From Phycisphaerales bacterium (GTDB taxonomy: Bacteria > Planctomycetota > Phycisphaerae > SM23-33 > FEN-1343), in contig PMYD01000034.1 in assembly GCA_003171335.1 (NCBI GenBank), forward strand, positions 1 through 64,000: a stretch of DNA of 64,000 nt, given 5' to 3'. The notes beneath the pieces were generated by a model. That model saw only the letters and a list, made by a program, of their open reading frames with translations, made no database searches and was not told where the DNA came from. Shown here piece after piece: positions 18,381-48,435 of this stretch (its first letter is position 1; each line of letters begins with the position of its first letter). A program made the position numbers and the translations under genes.

Positions 18381-18734
18381 CGCAAATCCCAAATTCCAAT
18401 TTCCAAATTCCAAACAAGCACCAAATCACAAAGGGGAGGAAAAGTCTTGGCAGGTGGTCGCCCGCCAACTTTAAACCGTTTAAAGTACGGTCAGGTTCTG
18501 TTAGGGACGCCACCTTTAAACCGTTTAAAGGTGGGTTGGGTTCCGTTAGGGCTGATTCGTCCAACTGGGTTGAGAATTCGTCCGTGTGGAAGTTAGATTT
18601 TTAAAAGGGGTTACAAGCCAGGCGACCTTCGGGTACACCTGGGCTAGACAGATTCGGGGCCATCCCCCCTTTGAGTTTTGGGATTTGGTGCTTGGAATTT
18701 GTTTTGGATTTGGGATTTGGAGCTTGGGATTTTC
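18381..18734. repeat. Inverted repeat cassette (CAAATTCCAAACAAGCACCAAAT / GGATTTGGTGCTTGGAATTTG) enclosing GTTTAAAC-type palindromes
   Basis: Arms 18381..18438 and 18665..18734; inner palindromes 18468..18486 and 18510..18534. Confidence 0.8.
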
Positions 18735-29314: not shown

Positions 29315-29932
29315 CACCTCCGGAATTTCCGGACGTGGTGGACCCCCGCGCATTCGGAAAGGCGCTAACGTTCCTACTAGCCAAAAAAATTCTTGACAAA
29401 CAGCAAGAGCATGGTATTCTATACTAGCCGAGGCGCTTTACACTCAGGTTCGTAGCTACGCATTAGCGCCGGTGGTCGATGAGGACCCTTCGTGCGGCAA
29501 TGAATGCCACACGCGGTGCAATTGACAATCAAAAAAGGGATGTGCGGTCAAGAGCGATGCCTGGTGCAATCTGTAAGTACCAAGCAAGAAGCGACTTAAC
29601 GGAATTCGTTACGGATAATTGAACTGCGTAATTTCCGCAGTTGTCTCGGCGGGTTCCGGAAGAAGAGAGAGTTCGCCTGCTCCAAGCCGCCGGCGCGTTA
29701 CGGATAATGGAACTGCGGAAATTCCGCAGTTGCTTGACTCACCTCCGGAAATTCCGGAGGTGAGTATCCCCTCCGCGACTCCGAACTTGTCGGAGTCAAC
29801 TGCGGAAATTCCGCAGTTGACCCTAACATCATGCGAATCACGTCCGGAATTTCCGGACGTGGTGGACCGGCCGTAGGTCCGGGAAGCGGGCAACCCTAAC
29901 AGACCCCGATCGTACTTTAAACGGTTTAAAGT
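29315..29932. repeat. Cluster of variable-arm odd-length palindromes
   Basis: 29315..29337, 29621..29643, 29710..29732, 29737..29765 (ACTCACCTCCGGAAATTCCGGAGGTGAGT), 29777..29797, 29797..29819, 29839..29861, 29914..29932. Confidence 0.9.
29393..29425 (+). promoter_or_regulatory. Possible sigma70-like promoter
   Basis: TTGACA (29393) - 16 nt - TATTCT (29415); TATACT overlaps at 29420 with 21-nt spacing. Confidence 0.4.
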
Positions 29933-30000
29933 TGGAAGCGACTCGCCGGCATAGACTTTAGATGGCCGGGTTTGGCCCCGGCCCAAGGGGAGCGGAGTCT

Positions 30001-32778: not shown

Positions 32779-32861
32779 GATAATGGACATGACAACTGTT
32801 GTCATGTCCATTATCTGTAACGCGGAGGGCTGGTCGGCACGTCCGGAATTTCCGGACGTGC
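32779..32861. repeat. Two variable-arm palindromes, including a 37-nt perfect palindrome
   Basis: GATAATGGACATGACAAC-T-GTTGTCATGTCCATTATC (32779..32815); CACGTCCGGAATTTCCGGACGTG (32838..32860). Confidence 0.9.
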
Positions 32862-43013: not shown

Positions 43014-44897
43014 ATCGAGCTGCTGTGGCTCATCCCGGCGCTGCCGTTGGCGGGCTTTGTAGCCCTGGTGGCGGGCCGCGCGCTGAGTAAGCGCCTCGTG
43101 GCGTGGATCGGCGTGGGCTCCGTGGCGGCCAGCATGGTCGTAACGCTCCTCGTCGCCGCCGGCTACTTCGCCCATCGTCCGCCAAACGGCGTATATAGCC
43201 AGACCCTGTGGACGTGGATCCGTATCGGCGACTTTGCGCCGGTGATCGGCCTGCACCTCGATGCCTTGTCGCTGGTGATGATCGTCGTGGTGACGGTGGT
43301 GGCGTTCCTCATTCACCTGTTCTCCAGCACGCACATGGAGAATGAGGAAGGCTACGGCCGGTTCTTCGCATACATGAACCTGTTTGTCTCCAGCATGCTC
43401 ATCCTGGTCCTGGCCGATAACCTGCTGCTGCTGTACCTGGGCTGGGAAGGTGTGGGCCTGTGCAGCTACCTGCTGATCGGCTTTTGGTACCGCATTCCGG
43501 CCAACGGCCATGCGGCCATGAAGGCGTTCATCATCACCCGCGTGGGCGATGCGGCCATGGCGGTGGGCCTCTTCCTCATCTTCTGGTCGCTGGGCACGCT
43601 GGATATTTCGCAGATCTCGCAGCGCGCACCCCAGCAGTGGCCCGCGGGCTGCGGCCTGGCGGTGGCGGCGGCGGCGCTGCTCCTCGGTGGGGCGGTGGGC
43701 AAGTCCGCGCAGCTTCCGCTGCAAACCTGGCTGCCGGATGCTATGGCGGGTCCCTCGCCCGTCAGCGCGCTCATTCACGCCGCCACGATGGTGACGGCCG
43801 GCGTGTACCTGATCGCGCGCATGAACGCGCTGTTCGCGCTGGCGCCGGTGGTGCAGGGCGTGATCGTGGTCATCGGCGCCGCCACCATGCTGCTGGCGGC
43901 GTTCAGCGCACTGGCCCAGCACGACATCAAGCGCGTGCTGGCGTACTCGACGATCAGCCAGATCGGCTACATGTTCATGGCATTAGGGATTGGGGCCTGG
44001 GGGGCGGCGATTCTGCATTTCGCCAGCCATGCGTTTTTCAAGGCGCTGCTCTTCCTGGCCGCCGGCGTGGTCATTCAGCGGCTGGGCGATGAGCACGACA
44101 TGTTCCGCATGGGCGGCTTGCGCAAGCAACTGCCGCTGGTCTTCTGGACTTTTCTCGCCGGCGCGCTGTCGCTCTCGGCGGCGCTGCCGATCCTCACCGC
44201 CGGCTCGTACAGCAAGGACACCATTCTCACGCTGCTGCACGCGGTACCCGGCGGCAAGACTGCCCTGGCCGCGGGCCTGCTGGGCGTGATCGTGACATCC
44301 ATCTATACGTTCCGCATGGTGTTCCTGACCTTCTTCGGGCCGGCGAAGATGCAGGCCGAGCGGACCAACCGCCTGCCCGAGTCGATCCCGCTGGTCCTGC
44401 TGGCCCTGGTGGCCGCGTTTGGCGGCGTGGCGGGCCTGGCGGGTCAAAATGCGAACTGGCCGGGGCTCGTCCAATTCGTCCAGGGCGGTTCTTCGGTCGC
44501 CCCGGCGGCGGGCGAGGCGGCCATCTCGCACGTCGCCCTCGGCGCCATCGCCGCCTCGTGGCTGGGCCTGGCCATCGCCGCGGCGCTCTACCTGCGCCGC
44601 CGGCCCGCGCCGGCCGGCGAAACCGAATCCGCCCTGCACCGCCTGCTGGCGGCGGGCTGGGGCTTTGATGCGCTGTACGACCGGCTCTTCGTCCGCCCGT
44701 GGCTGTGGATCGCGCGGGTGAACAGGTCCGATATTGTGGACTCCTTTTACGAGGCGATTGGACAGGCCACTGTCGCGCTGCACGGCATGATGTCCGGCAG
44801 CCAGACCGGCCGCACGCGCCAGTACGCCACGGGCGTGGCGCTGGGGACTATCCTGTTCATCGCGCTCATGGTGCTGCTACGATTCTGGCATTCTTAA
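43014..44897 (+). CDS. nuoL: NADH-quinone oxidoreductase subunit L (non-canonical ATC start proposed)
   Basis: In-frame N-term ATC-ELLWLIPALPLAGF; GPSPVSALIHAATMVTAGVYLIARM; no ATG/GTG/TTG between the nuoK stop and TTG at 43047. Confidence 0.85.
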   Translation: MELLWLIPALPLAGFVALVAGRALSKRLVAWIGVGSVAASMVVTLLVAAGYFAHRPPNGVYSQTLWTWIRIGDFAPVIGLHLDALSLVMIVVVTVVAFLIHLFSSTHMENEEGYGRFFAYMNLFVSSMLILVLADNLLLLYLGWEGVGLCSYLLIGFWYRIPANGHAAMKAFIITRVGDAAMAVGLFLIFWSLGTLDISQISQRAPQQWPAGCGLAVAAAALLLGGAVGKSAQLPLQTWLPDAMAGPSPVSALIHAATMVTAGVYLIARMNALFALAPVVQGVIVVIGAATMLLAAFSALAQHDIKRVLAYSTISQIGYMFMALGIGAWGAAILHFASHAFFKALLFLAAGVVIQRLGDEHDMFRMGGLRKQLPLVFWTFLAGALSLSAALPILTAGSYSKDTILTLLHAVPGGKTALAAGLLGVIVTSIYTFRMVFLTFFGPAKMQAERTNRLPESIPLVLLALVAAFGGVAGLAGQNANWPGLVQFVQGGSSVAPAAGEAAISHVALGAIAASWLGLAIAAALYLRRRPAPAGETESALHRLLAAGWGFDALYDRLFVRPWLWIARVNRSDIVDSFYEAIGQATVALHGMMSGSQTGRTRQYATGVALGTILFIALMVLLRFWHS

Positions 44898-47005
44898 TCC
44901 TGGTTCCGCTTGTAGCGGCGCTCGCGGCCGTGCCGGTGAGCCGGCGCGGCGCTACCGCCGTGCGCGCCCTGGCCCTGGCCGCGATGGCGGTTGAACTGGT
45001 TCTGGCGGTGGGGGCGTGGATCTATTACGGCCGCCTGGGCGCTGTGGGCGCGCCGGGCGCGTGGCTCGTCGAACTGAACTGGCCGTGGATCGCCCCCTTG
45101 GGCATTCGCCTCCACCTGGCGATGGATGGCCTGAGCCTGCTGATGGTGCTGCTGACGGCCTTCCTGGGCCTGTCCAGCGTGGTCGTCTCCTGGCGCGAAA
45201 TCACGCAGCGCGTGGGTCACTTCCACCTGCACCTGATGCTCGTCCTGGCCGGCGTGGTCGGCGTGTTCCTGGCGGTGGACCTGTTCGCGTTCTATTTCTT
45301 CTGGGAGCTGATGCTTATTCCCATGTACTTCCTCATCGACCTGTGGGGCCATGAGGACCGCCACCGGGCGGCGGTGAAGTTCTTCCTGTTCACGCAGTTT
45401 GGCGGCCTGGCGATGCTGCTGGGTATTCTGGCCCTGTATTTCGCGCACGCCTCCCAGACGGGCCAGTACAGTTTCGACCTGGCGGATCTCGCCAGGACGA
45501 ACCTGGCGCCGGCCGCGGCGATGCTCATGATGCTGGGCTTCTTCCTGGGCTTTGCCGTGAAGCTGCCGGCCTTCGGCCTGCACCCGTGGCTCCCCGCGGC
45601 GCACACGCAGGCGCCGACCGCCGGCAGCGTCATCCTGGCCGGGCTGCTCCTGAAGACCGGGGCGTACGGCCTCTTGCGTTTCGCCGTGCCGCTGTTTCCC
45701 GAGGCGGCGCGCCAGTTCGCGCCGGTGGCGATGGCGCTGGGCGTGGCGGGCATTCTTTACGGCGCGGTGCTCGCCTTTGCCCAGAGCGATCTGAAGCGGC
45801 TGGTCGCCTACACGAGCATCAGCCACCTGGGCTTCGTGCTGCTGGGGGTGTATTCGTTCAACGTGCTGGCCCTGCAGGGGGCGGTCATGCAGATGCTCTG
45901 CCACGGGCTGAGCACCGGCGCCCTGTTCATCATCGCCGGCCTGCTCCAGGACCGCCTGGGCACGCGCGAGATGGGCCGCATGGGCGGCCTGTGGGCCGTC
46001 GCGCCAAAAATGGGTGCGGCGGCGATGGTGTTCGCCATGGCCTCGCTGGGGCTGCCGGGGCTGGGGAATTTCATCGGCGAATTCCTGGTGCTGCTGGGGG
46101 CGTTCAAGGTGAATGTGGCACTGACGGCTGTGGCGACCGCCGGCCTGGTGGCGGCGACGATTTATTCGCTCTGGCTGATCCAACGGGTCTTCTTCGGCCC
46201 GTCCGCCGAGCCGCCGGCCATGGAGGACCTGCGGCCGCACGAGTCGCTGGTCCTGCTGGCGATGGTGGCGGTGCTGCTGTGGCTGGGGCTCTTCCCGCAG
46301 GCCGTGCTGGAGACGTCCCGGGCAGCGATGGAATATGTTGCCGGGACGCAAGTTACGGCAACTGCGGAAATTCCGCAGTTGAGCACGCCGGGTGCTCGGA
46401 TCAAGGGCGCGACTCCAAAATTTATGGAGTGGACTCCGACATTGTCGGAGTCAACTGGAGAAATTCTCCAGTTGAGAATGCTAGGGGTTCGGATTGAGGG
46501 CGCGACTCCAAAATTTATGGAGTCGATTCCGACAAAGTCGGAGTCAACTGGAGAAATTCTCCAGTTGGGCGTGCCGAGGGCTCGGATTGAGGGCGCGACT
46601 CCAAAATTTATGGAGTCGACTCCGACAAAGTCGGAGTCAACTGAGGAAATTCCTCAGTTGAGCGCGCTGAAGGCTGGGATTGAGGGTGCGCCTAGGGAAT
46701 CCCGAGAATTGACCCCGAGAAGCGAAGAGGGATCGCGCTTCAGATTACAATTGACCTCAGGCACACGGCTTATGTCGTTCGATGGTTGCTTGCCCGTCCC
46801 GCTGTCAGCCCCCTGGCGTGGTCGATTCGACCACGTGTCACGTCCGGAATTTCCGGACGTGCCGGTGGCAAGGACCGCTGGCGTCAGGCCTGTGTGCGGG
46901 CTAGCACGTCCGGAATTTCCGGACGTGCCGGTAGTGTGCGAGTTAGCACGTCCGGAATTTCCGGACGTGATGGCCCTGGCCGTCCCGAAAGGGGGCCGGC
47001 GATGA
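44882..47005 (+). CDS. nuoM: NADH-quinone oxidoreductase subunit M with a long repeat-derived C-terminal tail (ATT start proposed)
   Basis: ATT-LAFLILVPLVAALAAV N-term; KLPAFGLHPWLPAAHTQAPTAGSVILAGLLLKTGAYGLLRF; conserved part ends near 46350, then about 220 codons of palindrome array before the TGA overlapping nuoN. Confidence 0.85.
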   Translation: MLAFLILVPLVAALAAVPVSRRGATAVRALALAAMAVELVLAVGAWIYYGRLGAVGAPGAWLVELNWPWIAPLGIRLHLAMDGLSLLMVLLTAFLGLSSVVVSWREITQRVGHFHLHLMLVLAGVVGVFLAVDLFAFYFFWELMLIPMYFLIDLWGHEDRHRAAVKFFLFTQFGGLAMLLGILALYFAHASQTGQYSFDLADLARTNLAPAAAMLMMLGFFLGFAVKLPAFGLHPWLPAAHTQAPTAGSVILAGLLLKTGAYGLLRFAVPLFPEAARQFAPVAMALGVAGILYGAVLAFAQSDLKRLVAYTSISHLGFVLLGVYSFNVLALQGAVMQMLCHGLSTGALFIIAGLLQDRLGTREMGRMGGLWAVAPKMGAAAMVFAMASLGLPGLGNFIGEFLVLLGAFKVNVALTAVATAGLVAATIYSLWLIQRVFFGPSAEPPAMEDLRPHESLVLLAMVAVLLWLGLFPQAVLETSRAAMEYVAGTQVTATAEIPQLSTPGARIKGATPKFMEWTPTLSESTGEILQLRMLGVRIEGATPKFMESIPTKSESTGEILQLGVPRARIEGATPKFMESTPTKSESTEEIPQLSALKAGIEGAPRESRELTPRSEEGSRFRLQLTSGTRLMSFDGCLPVPLSAPWRGRFDHVSRPEFPDVPVARTAGVRPVCGLARPEFPDVPVVCELARPEFPDVMALAVPKGGRR
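46359..46969 (+). repeat. In-frame palindrome array inside nuoM: 93-bp tandem module x3 plus three CACGTCCGGAATTTCCGGACGTG copies and others
   Basis: Palindromes at 46359, 46411, 46432, 46452, 46504, 46525, 46545, 46597, 46618, 46638, 46817, 46839, 46905, 46947; module starts 46411/46504/46597 are exactly 93 bp apart. Confidence 0.93.
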
Positions 47006-48435
47006 CGCTGGAGCAGATCCGCGCCCTGCTGCCGCTCATCATCCTGGTGGGCGCCGCCGTCGCCATCATGCTGGGCCTGGCCGTGCGGCGAAACCACGCC
47101 TTTACGGTGGCCGTGGCCGTCGGGTCTCTGGCGGCGGCGATCCTCAGCCTGGCCTTAGGGCCGACCGTGGCCACGCCCATCACCCCGCTTTTGAGGCTGG
47201 ACGGCTTCTCGGTCTTCTTCAGCGGCCTGATCCTGGCCGCCTCGCTCTTCGTGGCCGTGCTTTCCCACGGCTACTGGAACCGCCGCCGCACCGTCATCAG
47301 CGAGGAGTTCTACATCCTGCTGCTCCTGGCGGCGGCCGGCTCGGTCACGCTGACGATGGCGGTACATTTCGCCTCGTTCTTCCTGGGGCTGGAAATTCTC
47401 TCCGGCTCGCTCTACGCCATGATCGCCTACGAGCGCGACCGCCAGGCGGCCGTCGAGGCGGGCATCAAGTACCTCGTTTTGGCCGGCGGCTCATCGGCCG
47501 TGCTGCTCTTTGGCATGGCGCTGGTGTACGCCCGAACCGGCACGCTCGACATGGCCGCGGCGGCCGCGAAATTGGCCGGCGCCCTGGATGTGCTGACGCT
47601 GGCCGGCGTGGCGATGATCCTGGTGGGCATCGGCTTCAAGCTGGCCCTGGCGCCCTTCCACCTGTGGGCCGCCGACGTGTACGAGGGCGCCCCCGCGCCC
47701 ACGGCGGCGTACGCGGCCACCGTCTCCAAGGGCGCCATCTTCGCCCTGCTGGTCCGCCTGGCGGCGGCGATGGACATCCAATCCAACCCGCCGTTCCAGG
47801 CCACGCTGGCGGCGGCGGCGGTGATCACGATGTTCGCCGGAAACCTGCTGGCCCTGCGGCAATCGAACCTGAAGCGTCTGCTGGCCTACTCCTCCATCGC
47901 CCACATGGGCTATCTGCTGGTGGCCTTCCTGGCGGCCGGCACGCTGGGCCGGACAGCCGTCGGGTTCTACCTGGCGGCGTACATTATCACGACGCTCGGG
48001 GTCTTCGCCGTGATGATCGTATTATCGGGGACGGAACGTGACGCCGACCGGCTGGAAGATTATATCGGCCTTTCCCGCGCCCACCCGCTGCTGGCGGCGG
48101 TCTTCGCCGGCATGCTGCTGTCGCTGGCGGGATTGCCGCTGACGGCCGGCTTTGTGGGAAAGTTTTACCTGCTGGCGGCGGGCGTCGGCGCACACCTGTG
48201 GGTGCTCGTCGCCGCGCTGGTCATCTCCAGCACGATTTCACTCTTCTACTATCTGCGGTTCATCGCCGCCGCCTACGCCCAGCCGGCCGCCCCGCCCGCG
48301 CTGCCGGCGGCAGTCGCCATGCCTCGCCTGGCGCGCCTGGCCATCGCCGTGCTGGTGATTTTGCTGCTGTGGCTGGGCGTTTACCCCGCCGCCGTCATTC
48401 GCGCCATCCAGGAGGCCGTGGCGATTGGGCGATAG
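47002..48435 (+). CDS. nuoN: NADH-quinone oxidoreductase subunit N
   Basis: MTLEQIRALLPLIILVGAAVAIM; FKLALAPFHLWAADVYEGAPAPTAAYAATVSKGA. Confidence 0.93.
   Translation: MTLEQIRALLPLIILVGAAVAIMLGLAVRRNHAFTVAVAVGSLAAAILSLALGPTVATPITPLLRLDGFSVFFSGLILAASLFVAVLSHGYWNRRRTVISEEFYILLLLAAAGSVTLTMAVHFASFFLGLEILSGSLYAMIAYERDRQAAVEAGIKYLVLAGGSSAVLLFGMALVYARTGTLDMAAAAAKLAGALDVLTLAGVAMILVGIGFKLALAPFHLWAADVYEGAPAPTAAYAATVSKGAIFALLVRLAAAMDIQSNPPFQATLAAAAVITMFAGNLLALRQSNLKRLLAYSSIAHMGYLLVAFLAAGTLGRTAVGFYLAAYIITTLGVFAVMIVLSGTERDADRLEDYIGLSRAHPLLAAVFAGMLLSLAGLPLTAGFVGKFYLLAAGVGAHLWVLVAALVISSTISLFYYLRFIAAAYAQPAAPPALPAAVAMPRLARLAIAVLVILLLWLGVYPAAVIRAIQEAVAIGR

Follow-up and report, generated by a model that had tools for sequence, protein, structure and literature searches.

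Arrays of candidate DNA sites for ParB- and StrR-like proteins at the end of a planctomycete nuoM gene and within the genes of the proteins themselves

Related systems

The protein family and the palindromic operators discussed here are of known kinds. Among described systems, the StrR-type regulators (StrR, Bbr, Dbv4, and AoStrR1) share with the proteins that we found a ParB-like N-domain joined to a helix-turn-helix (HTH), as well as palindromic sites. The consensus site of StrR is GTTCGActG(N)11CagTcGAAc (PMC8306873), and for both Bbr and AoStrR1, binding to the promoter region of the protein's own gene has been described (PMC8306873, PMC10886168, PMC7852140). One class of site in our genome, the A sites, shares its half-site and 11-nt spacer with StrR, as CAACTG-N11-CAGTTG fits CRACTG-N11-CAGTYG, which is a sequence match only. 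In contrast to the StrR-type systems, however, the candidate site described here lies within the coding sequence, just past the recognition helix, and differs from gene to gene; and whereas the StrR type is tied to an antibiotic cluster, the present system apparently is not, and one genome holds hundreds of extra sites.

ParB/parS and Noc/NBS resemble this system in their fold, in the position of the specificity residue, and in palindromic sites scattered over the genome. One of the parS sites of B. subtilis is located within spo0J. The present sites are longer than parS (21 to 25 bp), many paralogs have different sites, and the ParB CTP-binding motif of the GERRxRA type cannot be recognised, the region reading DGFHR[YF]xAA in all aligned paralogs. 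Rickettsia palindromic elements (RPEs) offer another likeness, since in both cases a housekeeping gene contains a palindromic repeat that keeps its frame. An RPE measures about 150 bp, and nearly half of the RPEs lie in ORFs of unrelated genes (PMC10969869), whereas here we find sites of 21 to 23 bp in variable arrays, nearly all intergenic, and the in-frame insertion into many unrelated genes that marks RPEs was not seen, since outside the ParB-like family nuoM is the only carrier found. Finally, REP repeats with their RAYT transposases are likewise short, dispersed, intergenic palindromes in arrays, but the present sites have no consistent RAYT neighbour, and their classes follow the HTH paralogs.

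In literature that mostly excluded subscription journals, we came across no account of a conserved site that lies within a gene beside the codons of the recognition helix, of covariation between such a site and the helix, or of a complex I gene extended in frame by an array of sites. One paper matching the words "within the parB gene" proved to concern cloning only.

Anatomy of the nuoM array

The window, that is, the whole stretch of 64,000 nucleotides that was analysed, belongs to contig C165 in a genome bin of 4.2 Mb (G000), and it contains the end of nuoM in the following arrangement:

44879..46350, plus strand, nuoM core (complex I antiporter-like subunit M), whose conserved N-terminus starts at an ACG codon
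46351..47005, plus strand, in-frame C-terminal extension of NuoM that holds the site array, 217 codons and TGA
46359..46381, plus strand, A site of CG type, matching the in-gene site of paralog C113 (D135 K136)
46411..46431, plus strand, B site of ATA type by site classification, with 2 mismatches
46432..46452, plus strand, B site of GAC type by site classification
46452..46474, plus strand, A site of GA type, matching the in-gene site of paralog C25, which is half decayed (H135 R136)
46504..46524, plus strand, B site of ATA type by site classification
46525..46545, plus strand, B site of GAC type by site classification
46545..46567, plus strand, A site of GA type by site classification
46597..46617, plus strand, B site of ATA type by site classification
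46618..46638, plus strand, B site of GAC type by site classification
46638..46660, plus strand, A site of AG type, matching the in-gene site of paralog C45 (N135 K136)
46817..46835, plus strand, palindrome CGTGGTCGATTCGACCACG, outside the known classes, from the palindrome search
46839..46861, plus strand, C site, matching the in-gene array of paralog C44 (G125 E135 K136)
46905..46927, plus strand, C site by site classification
46947..46969, plus strand, C site by site classification
47002..48435, plus strand, nuoN, whose ATG overlaps the nuoM stop (ATGA)

The sequence and its ORFs bear out the earlier note's account of a nuoM frame that stays open for about 220 codons through 14 palindromes, is preserved in frame up to the TGA at 47003-47005, and keeps its coupling to nuoN through the overlap with the ATG at 47002. 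The recognisable part of NuoM, which had been placed as ending near 46350, is homologous to 91 related NuoM genes, Planctomycetota MAGs included, up to about residue 484-490 of the query (about 46335-46348). Past residue 490, the open frame measures 217-218 aa, compared with a median of 23 aa in the 91 relatives, a 90th percentile of 53, and a next largest value of 105. The array is lineage-specific. Its peptides, by translation, include ATPKFMESTPTK and RPEFPDVPV, and a comparison of the tail with Pfam gave no match. At its other end, nuoM has a conserved N-terminus without ATG, GTG, or TTG; the homologous start is the ACG at 44879-44881 (TILAFLILVP..), and the first in-frame start codon of the ORF is a GTG at 44699, within nuoL.

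The 4-bp ATGA overlap with nuoN is common to many relatives, whose proteins end, for example, in ..GR or ..RP, and thus the KGGRR* of the window nuoM is probably the original C-terminus, with the site array located within the variable C-terminal stretch. This bears on the proposal that, owing to an assembly artefact or a recent loss of the stop codon, nuoM ends near 46350 in vivo and the tail is untranslated. Such a proposal would fit the end of homology at about 46348 and the tail itself, in which the codon-usage signal of the genome was looked for and not found, but chance readthrough would not restore an ATGA overlap and a ..GGRR* end that match those of relatives, and the frame is open over its entire length, so we regard this explanation as unlikely.

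Within the tail, a 93-bp module had been described as repeated three times. The three copies are real, but they are not identical: the first module deviates in its B-type palindromes, and the A-type palindrome of the third is CAACTGAGGAAATTCCTCAGTTG, both of which correct the earlier reading. The spacing of 66 and 42 bp between the C-type palindromes is real as described.

Our preferred reading, to which we assign a probability of about 0.82, is that the nuoM tail is an array of candidate DNA sites for a family of ParB_N+HTH (StrR-like) paralogs whose genes carry their own sites. The 13 classified sites would be candidate targets of at least four paralogs and of a fifth protein, which would read the B class.

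In-gene position and the recognition code

In 60 stretches of the host genome on which we studied the arrays, and leaving nuoM aside, four arrays fall within coding DNA, and all four of the genes concerned belong to a family that encodes a ParB_N domain followed by an HTH. At least 10 copies of this family were found in the host genome, and nearly every paralog has an in-frame palindrome just 3′ of the HTH codons, in the codon phase that the nuoM sites also show, with a sequence that varies from paralog to paralog:

Paralog C113, in-gene palindrome CAACTGCGG
Paralog C45, in-gene palindrome CAACTGAGG
Paralogs C150, C37, C82, and C148, in-gene palindrome CAACTGGTG
Paralog C25, in-gene palindrome CAACTGGAG, right half decayed
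Paralog C44, in-gene palindrome CACGTCCGG
Paralog C159, in-gene palindrome TTTAAAC (site ACTTTAAAC)
Paralog C168, in-gene palindrome CAGTTCAGGCT

These in-gene classes recur in the intergenic arrays and in nuoM. In the C44 gene (L163, 3834-5174), the in-gene site has grown into an in-frame array of four repeats at 84 bp, with both C and A sites, which holds sites of another paralog and is the coding counterpart of the nuoM array.

The protein encoded by C45 matches PF02195 (ParB-like N-domain) above the cut-off (E=1e-6) and an AsnC-type HTH under the Pfam cut-off (E=0.0027). Its structural model (mean pLDDT 71.5) has helices at 105-118, 124-131, and 135-148, so that residue 135 opens the recognition helix and residue 125 lies within helix 124-131, and a Foldseek search places the modelled fold closest to ParB, Noc, and KorB. 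Through a G-x-S motif, position 135 aligns with residue 173 of ParB/Noc, a proven specificity residue at which Q173 reads adenine (PMC7383237).

When we compared the half-sites with the DNA-reading residues in 65 genes, a code emerged that pairs residues 125, 135, and 137 with bases 6, 5, and 1. At position 135, E goes with C (13/13), D with C (10/11), H with G (20/23), and Q with A (5/6); at position 125, R goes with G in 29 of 29 genes, and N, S, V, and M go mostly with T; at position 137, T goes with A (37/38), and F and M mostly with C. The canonical contact rule between residue 135 and base 5 was right for 50 of 64 genes, as against 20.4±3.4 after shuffling (maximum 34 in 20,000 shuffles), and the pairing of R125 with G6 for 61 of 65, as against 32.4±4.1. 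Relatedness could have inflated part of this covariation, yet it holds in a set thinned to less than 60% identity (24/34 for the residue 135 rule and 32/35 for R125-G6), and the association between residues and sites survives control for ParB_N identity (partial Mantel p=0.0005). For instance, L410, L360, and L235 are 75-77% identical overall, and their recognition helices and palindromes differ together. Rules fixed beforehand gave 18 correct predictions out of 20 on seven new palindrome-bearing genes; the hold-out is small, and four of its genes had been inspected before they were put to the test. A single palindrome from each gene went into the first code table, and the one taken for L226 probably belonged to a neighbour. 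The in-gene dyad covaries with the DNA-reading residues, as would be expected of a self-encoded binding site. A search of the MAG for the ParB-HTH gene cognate to the B class, whose pattern matches 83 sites, found none; by the code, the reader is predicted to carry D or E at 135 together with G at 125, like the viral L410 (in-gene palindrome GACTCCGAAAGTTTCGGAGTC).

It might be argued that the palindromes form hairpins in RNA, which would serve as terminators, attenuators, or mRNA stabilisers and came to lie in coding DNA by chance, given that the inverted repeats between genes are perfect and that some arrays lie 3′ of genes. However, in 44 of 58 in-gene dyads the bases on either side of the centre are complementary, a pair that an RNA hairpin could not form, and among the mismatches of these dyads, G:T (66) is no commoner than A:C (61). 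We rejected the hairpin reading on these two counts; the helical spacing, the covariation with DNA-reading residues, and the 15 of 47 arrays that lie between divergent genes also speak against it and make it very improbable. Judged by sequence, the palindromes show the behaviour of DNA sites that follow a code of recognition between protein and base, not that of peptide modules.

The arrangement extends to other genomes. Among 131 non-redundant foreign genes from other planctomycetes and from IMG/VR contigs, to which later virus searches added few, 47 have palindromes with arms of at least 10 bp, as against an average of 0.25 expected after synonymous recoding of the region; 42 of the 131 have theirs in the first 60 nt past HTH position 140 and 5 in the next 60 nt, with 0-1 in the other bins. 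In genes on plasmids from other phyla, namely those of Gloeocapsopsis, Chroococcidiopsis, Chlorohelix, and Rhodovastum, the palindrome is centred 25-34 nt after this position. The palindromes are unrelated in sequence from gene to gene, and thus position and symmetry are conserved and the letters are not. A perfect in-gene palindrome is present in only about half of the related genes (7/39 in the hold-out set), and the Acaryochloris and Streptomyces plasmid homologs that we checked have none. On the Chlorohelix plasmids L434 (2468-3916) and L499 (901-2346), the ParB_N+HTH coding sequence lies within a gene annotated as a DNA methyltransferase, which may point to a fusion of both; the gene of L434 carries an in-gene palindrome.

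Most of the other genomes that we checked yielded no copy besides the in-gene site. At viral loci, flanking second copies were found in 2 of 57 cases, compared with 5 of 280 in the null, so an extra promoter copy is not general and, with extra copies near phage genes this rare, neither is a network of sites. In the complete planctomycete genome G406, a triple array of 66 bp (CTCACTTATACAATTTATAAGTGAG, at C1:2697371-2697527) and single CTCACTGATACAATGTATCAGTGAG sites at four dispersed places resemble, on a reduced scale, the network in our host genome.

Helical spacing, distribution, and meaning of the sites

Palindromes with arms of at least 8 bp number 65 in the window, as against 15-24 in Markov-shuffled sequence. 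The host genome has 123 A-type sites (CAACTGNNGAAATTCNNCAGTTG; CAACTG-N11-CAGTTG), 83 B-type sites by pattern (GACTCC-N9-GGAGTC), and 15 exact C-type sites, with 0 for the reversed control in each case; the A pattern was absent from 59 relatives and the B pattern from 391 other genomes of the phylum. In the 60 stretches, nearly all arrays fall between coding segments, and 53 of the 63 arrays with at least two sites combine at least two site classes. The intergenic sites of the window include:

18465..18566, unstranded, intergenic, D sites that have their spacer in common with the array inside the gene of paralog C159
29616..29938, unstranded, intergenic, array of seven classified sites (A, B, C, and D, the latter ACTTTAAACGGTTTAAAGT)
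32838..32860, unstranded, intergenic, lone C site

The gaps that bear arrays (26 tandem, 15 divergent, and 6 convergent, compared with 124, 36, and 27 for other gaps) show no clear orientation bias. The window also has a second set of short intergenic hairpins of another build, with loops of 3-4 nt (CACGGGCGAGACGCCCGTG and variants), in many copies (10834, 12262, 30796, 36002, 42120, and elsewhere).

Adjacent sites within arrays follow a period of 10.5-10.6 bp (power 0.40, noise 0.075), which persists at 0.31 when the commonest spacing, 21 bp, is removed, whereas the 3-bp periodicity is weak (0.11 without the 21-bp spacing). Given that 21 bp is two helical turns and also seven codons, abutting sites hold their phase for free. 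The earlier note had stressed that all spacings in nuoM preserve one phase; the 13 classified sites do share it, each being centred on codon position 1, but it comes largely from the 21-bp helical spacing and tandem duplication. Frames in which all sites have the nuoM phase contain 0.0065 stops per codon, which gives a probability of about 0.24 for 218 open codons, as against 0.2% in array frames generally. Such stop-poor frames, together with the 21-bp spacing, mean that the nuoM phase requires no special protein-compatible element, even though the tail may well owe its open frame to the coupling with nuoN.

These observations weigh on the suggestion, made in the earlier note, of a protein-compatible palindromic element system analogous to RPEs, here taken as a mobile element of the RPE or PARCEL kind that inserts in frame and is selected for compatibility with the protein. 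In-frame arrays do occur in nuoM and in the ParB-like genes, the nuoM array has one phase throughout, and copying does take place, as the D arrays at 18465-18566 and 29889-29936 have their spacer sequence in common with the in-gene array of C159. Nevertheless, the 63 other arrays examined are intergenic, no copies were found in other gene classes, nuoM being the sole gene found with an in-frame array outside the family, and just 16 of 57 arrays with at least three sites have a single phase throughout. As the sequence of the palindromes follows the recognition residues, and their spacing follows the helix with only that weak 3-bp periodicity, we give this suggestion little credence.

Spread by a RAYT (Y1 transposase), as for REP repeats, could be imagined from the small size and dispersal of the palindromes and from 13 Y1_Tnp matches in the host genome, but the site classes fit the ParB-like paralogs instead, and when coordinates were compared, the match at C44:21144 was the only one to have a known site no more than about 3 kb away, with no RAYT gene found flanked by repeats. 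We rejected this link because the Y1_Tnp places are not consistently near sites, and we consider it extremely improbable. The Y1_Tnp matches (IS200/RAYT-like) are on C168, C137, C162, C45, C44, C42, C16, C169, and other contigs, and the C44 ParB-like gene has one of them at a distance of about 2 kb.

Returning to candidate sites for ParB_N+HTH paralogs, the mechanism that we propose is as follows. In the gene of each paralog, the codons of the recognition helix are followed immediately by that paralog's own site, which is coding DNA too, and the protein, probably a dimer, would read each half-site through residue 125, at the start of helix 2, and residues 134-137, at the start of the recognition helix. 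By binding its in-gene site, each protein may control its own gene or load there, a roadblock or a loading site being most likely. In the host genome, the sites have multiplied into helically phased, mostly intergenic arrays in which the sites of several paralogs are mixed. One of these arrays occupies the nuoM/nuoN junction, and so the binding places of the network probably include the nuo operon. We infer from these sequence patterns that the proteins bind the sites, that autoregulation could operate through the in-gene site, and that nuo expression may be affected. The added NuoM peptide would be a by-product that must stay open for translational coupling to nuoN.

More broadly, we lean towards the view that there is a widespread class of ParB/StrR-like genes, each of which is its own key and lock, in which the codons of the recognition helix coevolve with a hypervariable palindrome, itself coding, that lies some 20-30 bp further 3′; specificity and site may thereby be inherited and swapped as one cassette. 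In the host planctomycete, this cassette would have grown into a genome-wide network of several paralogs that includes the end of a complex I gene. If this is true, any genome or virus sequence would reveal the DNA site of its regulator, and a single gene sequence would yield both a DNA-binding protein and its target, so that such pairs could be harvested from sequence and an HTH recognition code could be tested directly at scale. A likely site would also become available for each member of the large orphan ParB_N+HTH family of phages, plasmids, and planctomycetes. As for nuoM, operator arrays can apparently enter coding DNA and lengthen a core respiratory subunit, with translational coupling left unbroken by their spread because 21 bp makes both two helical turns and seven codons.
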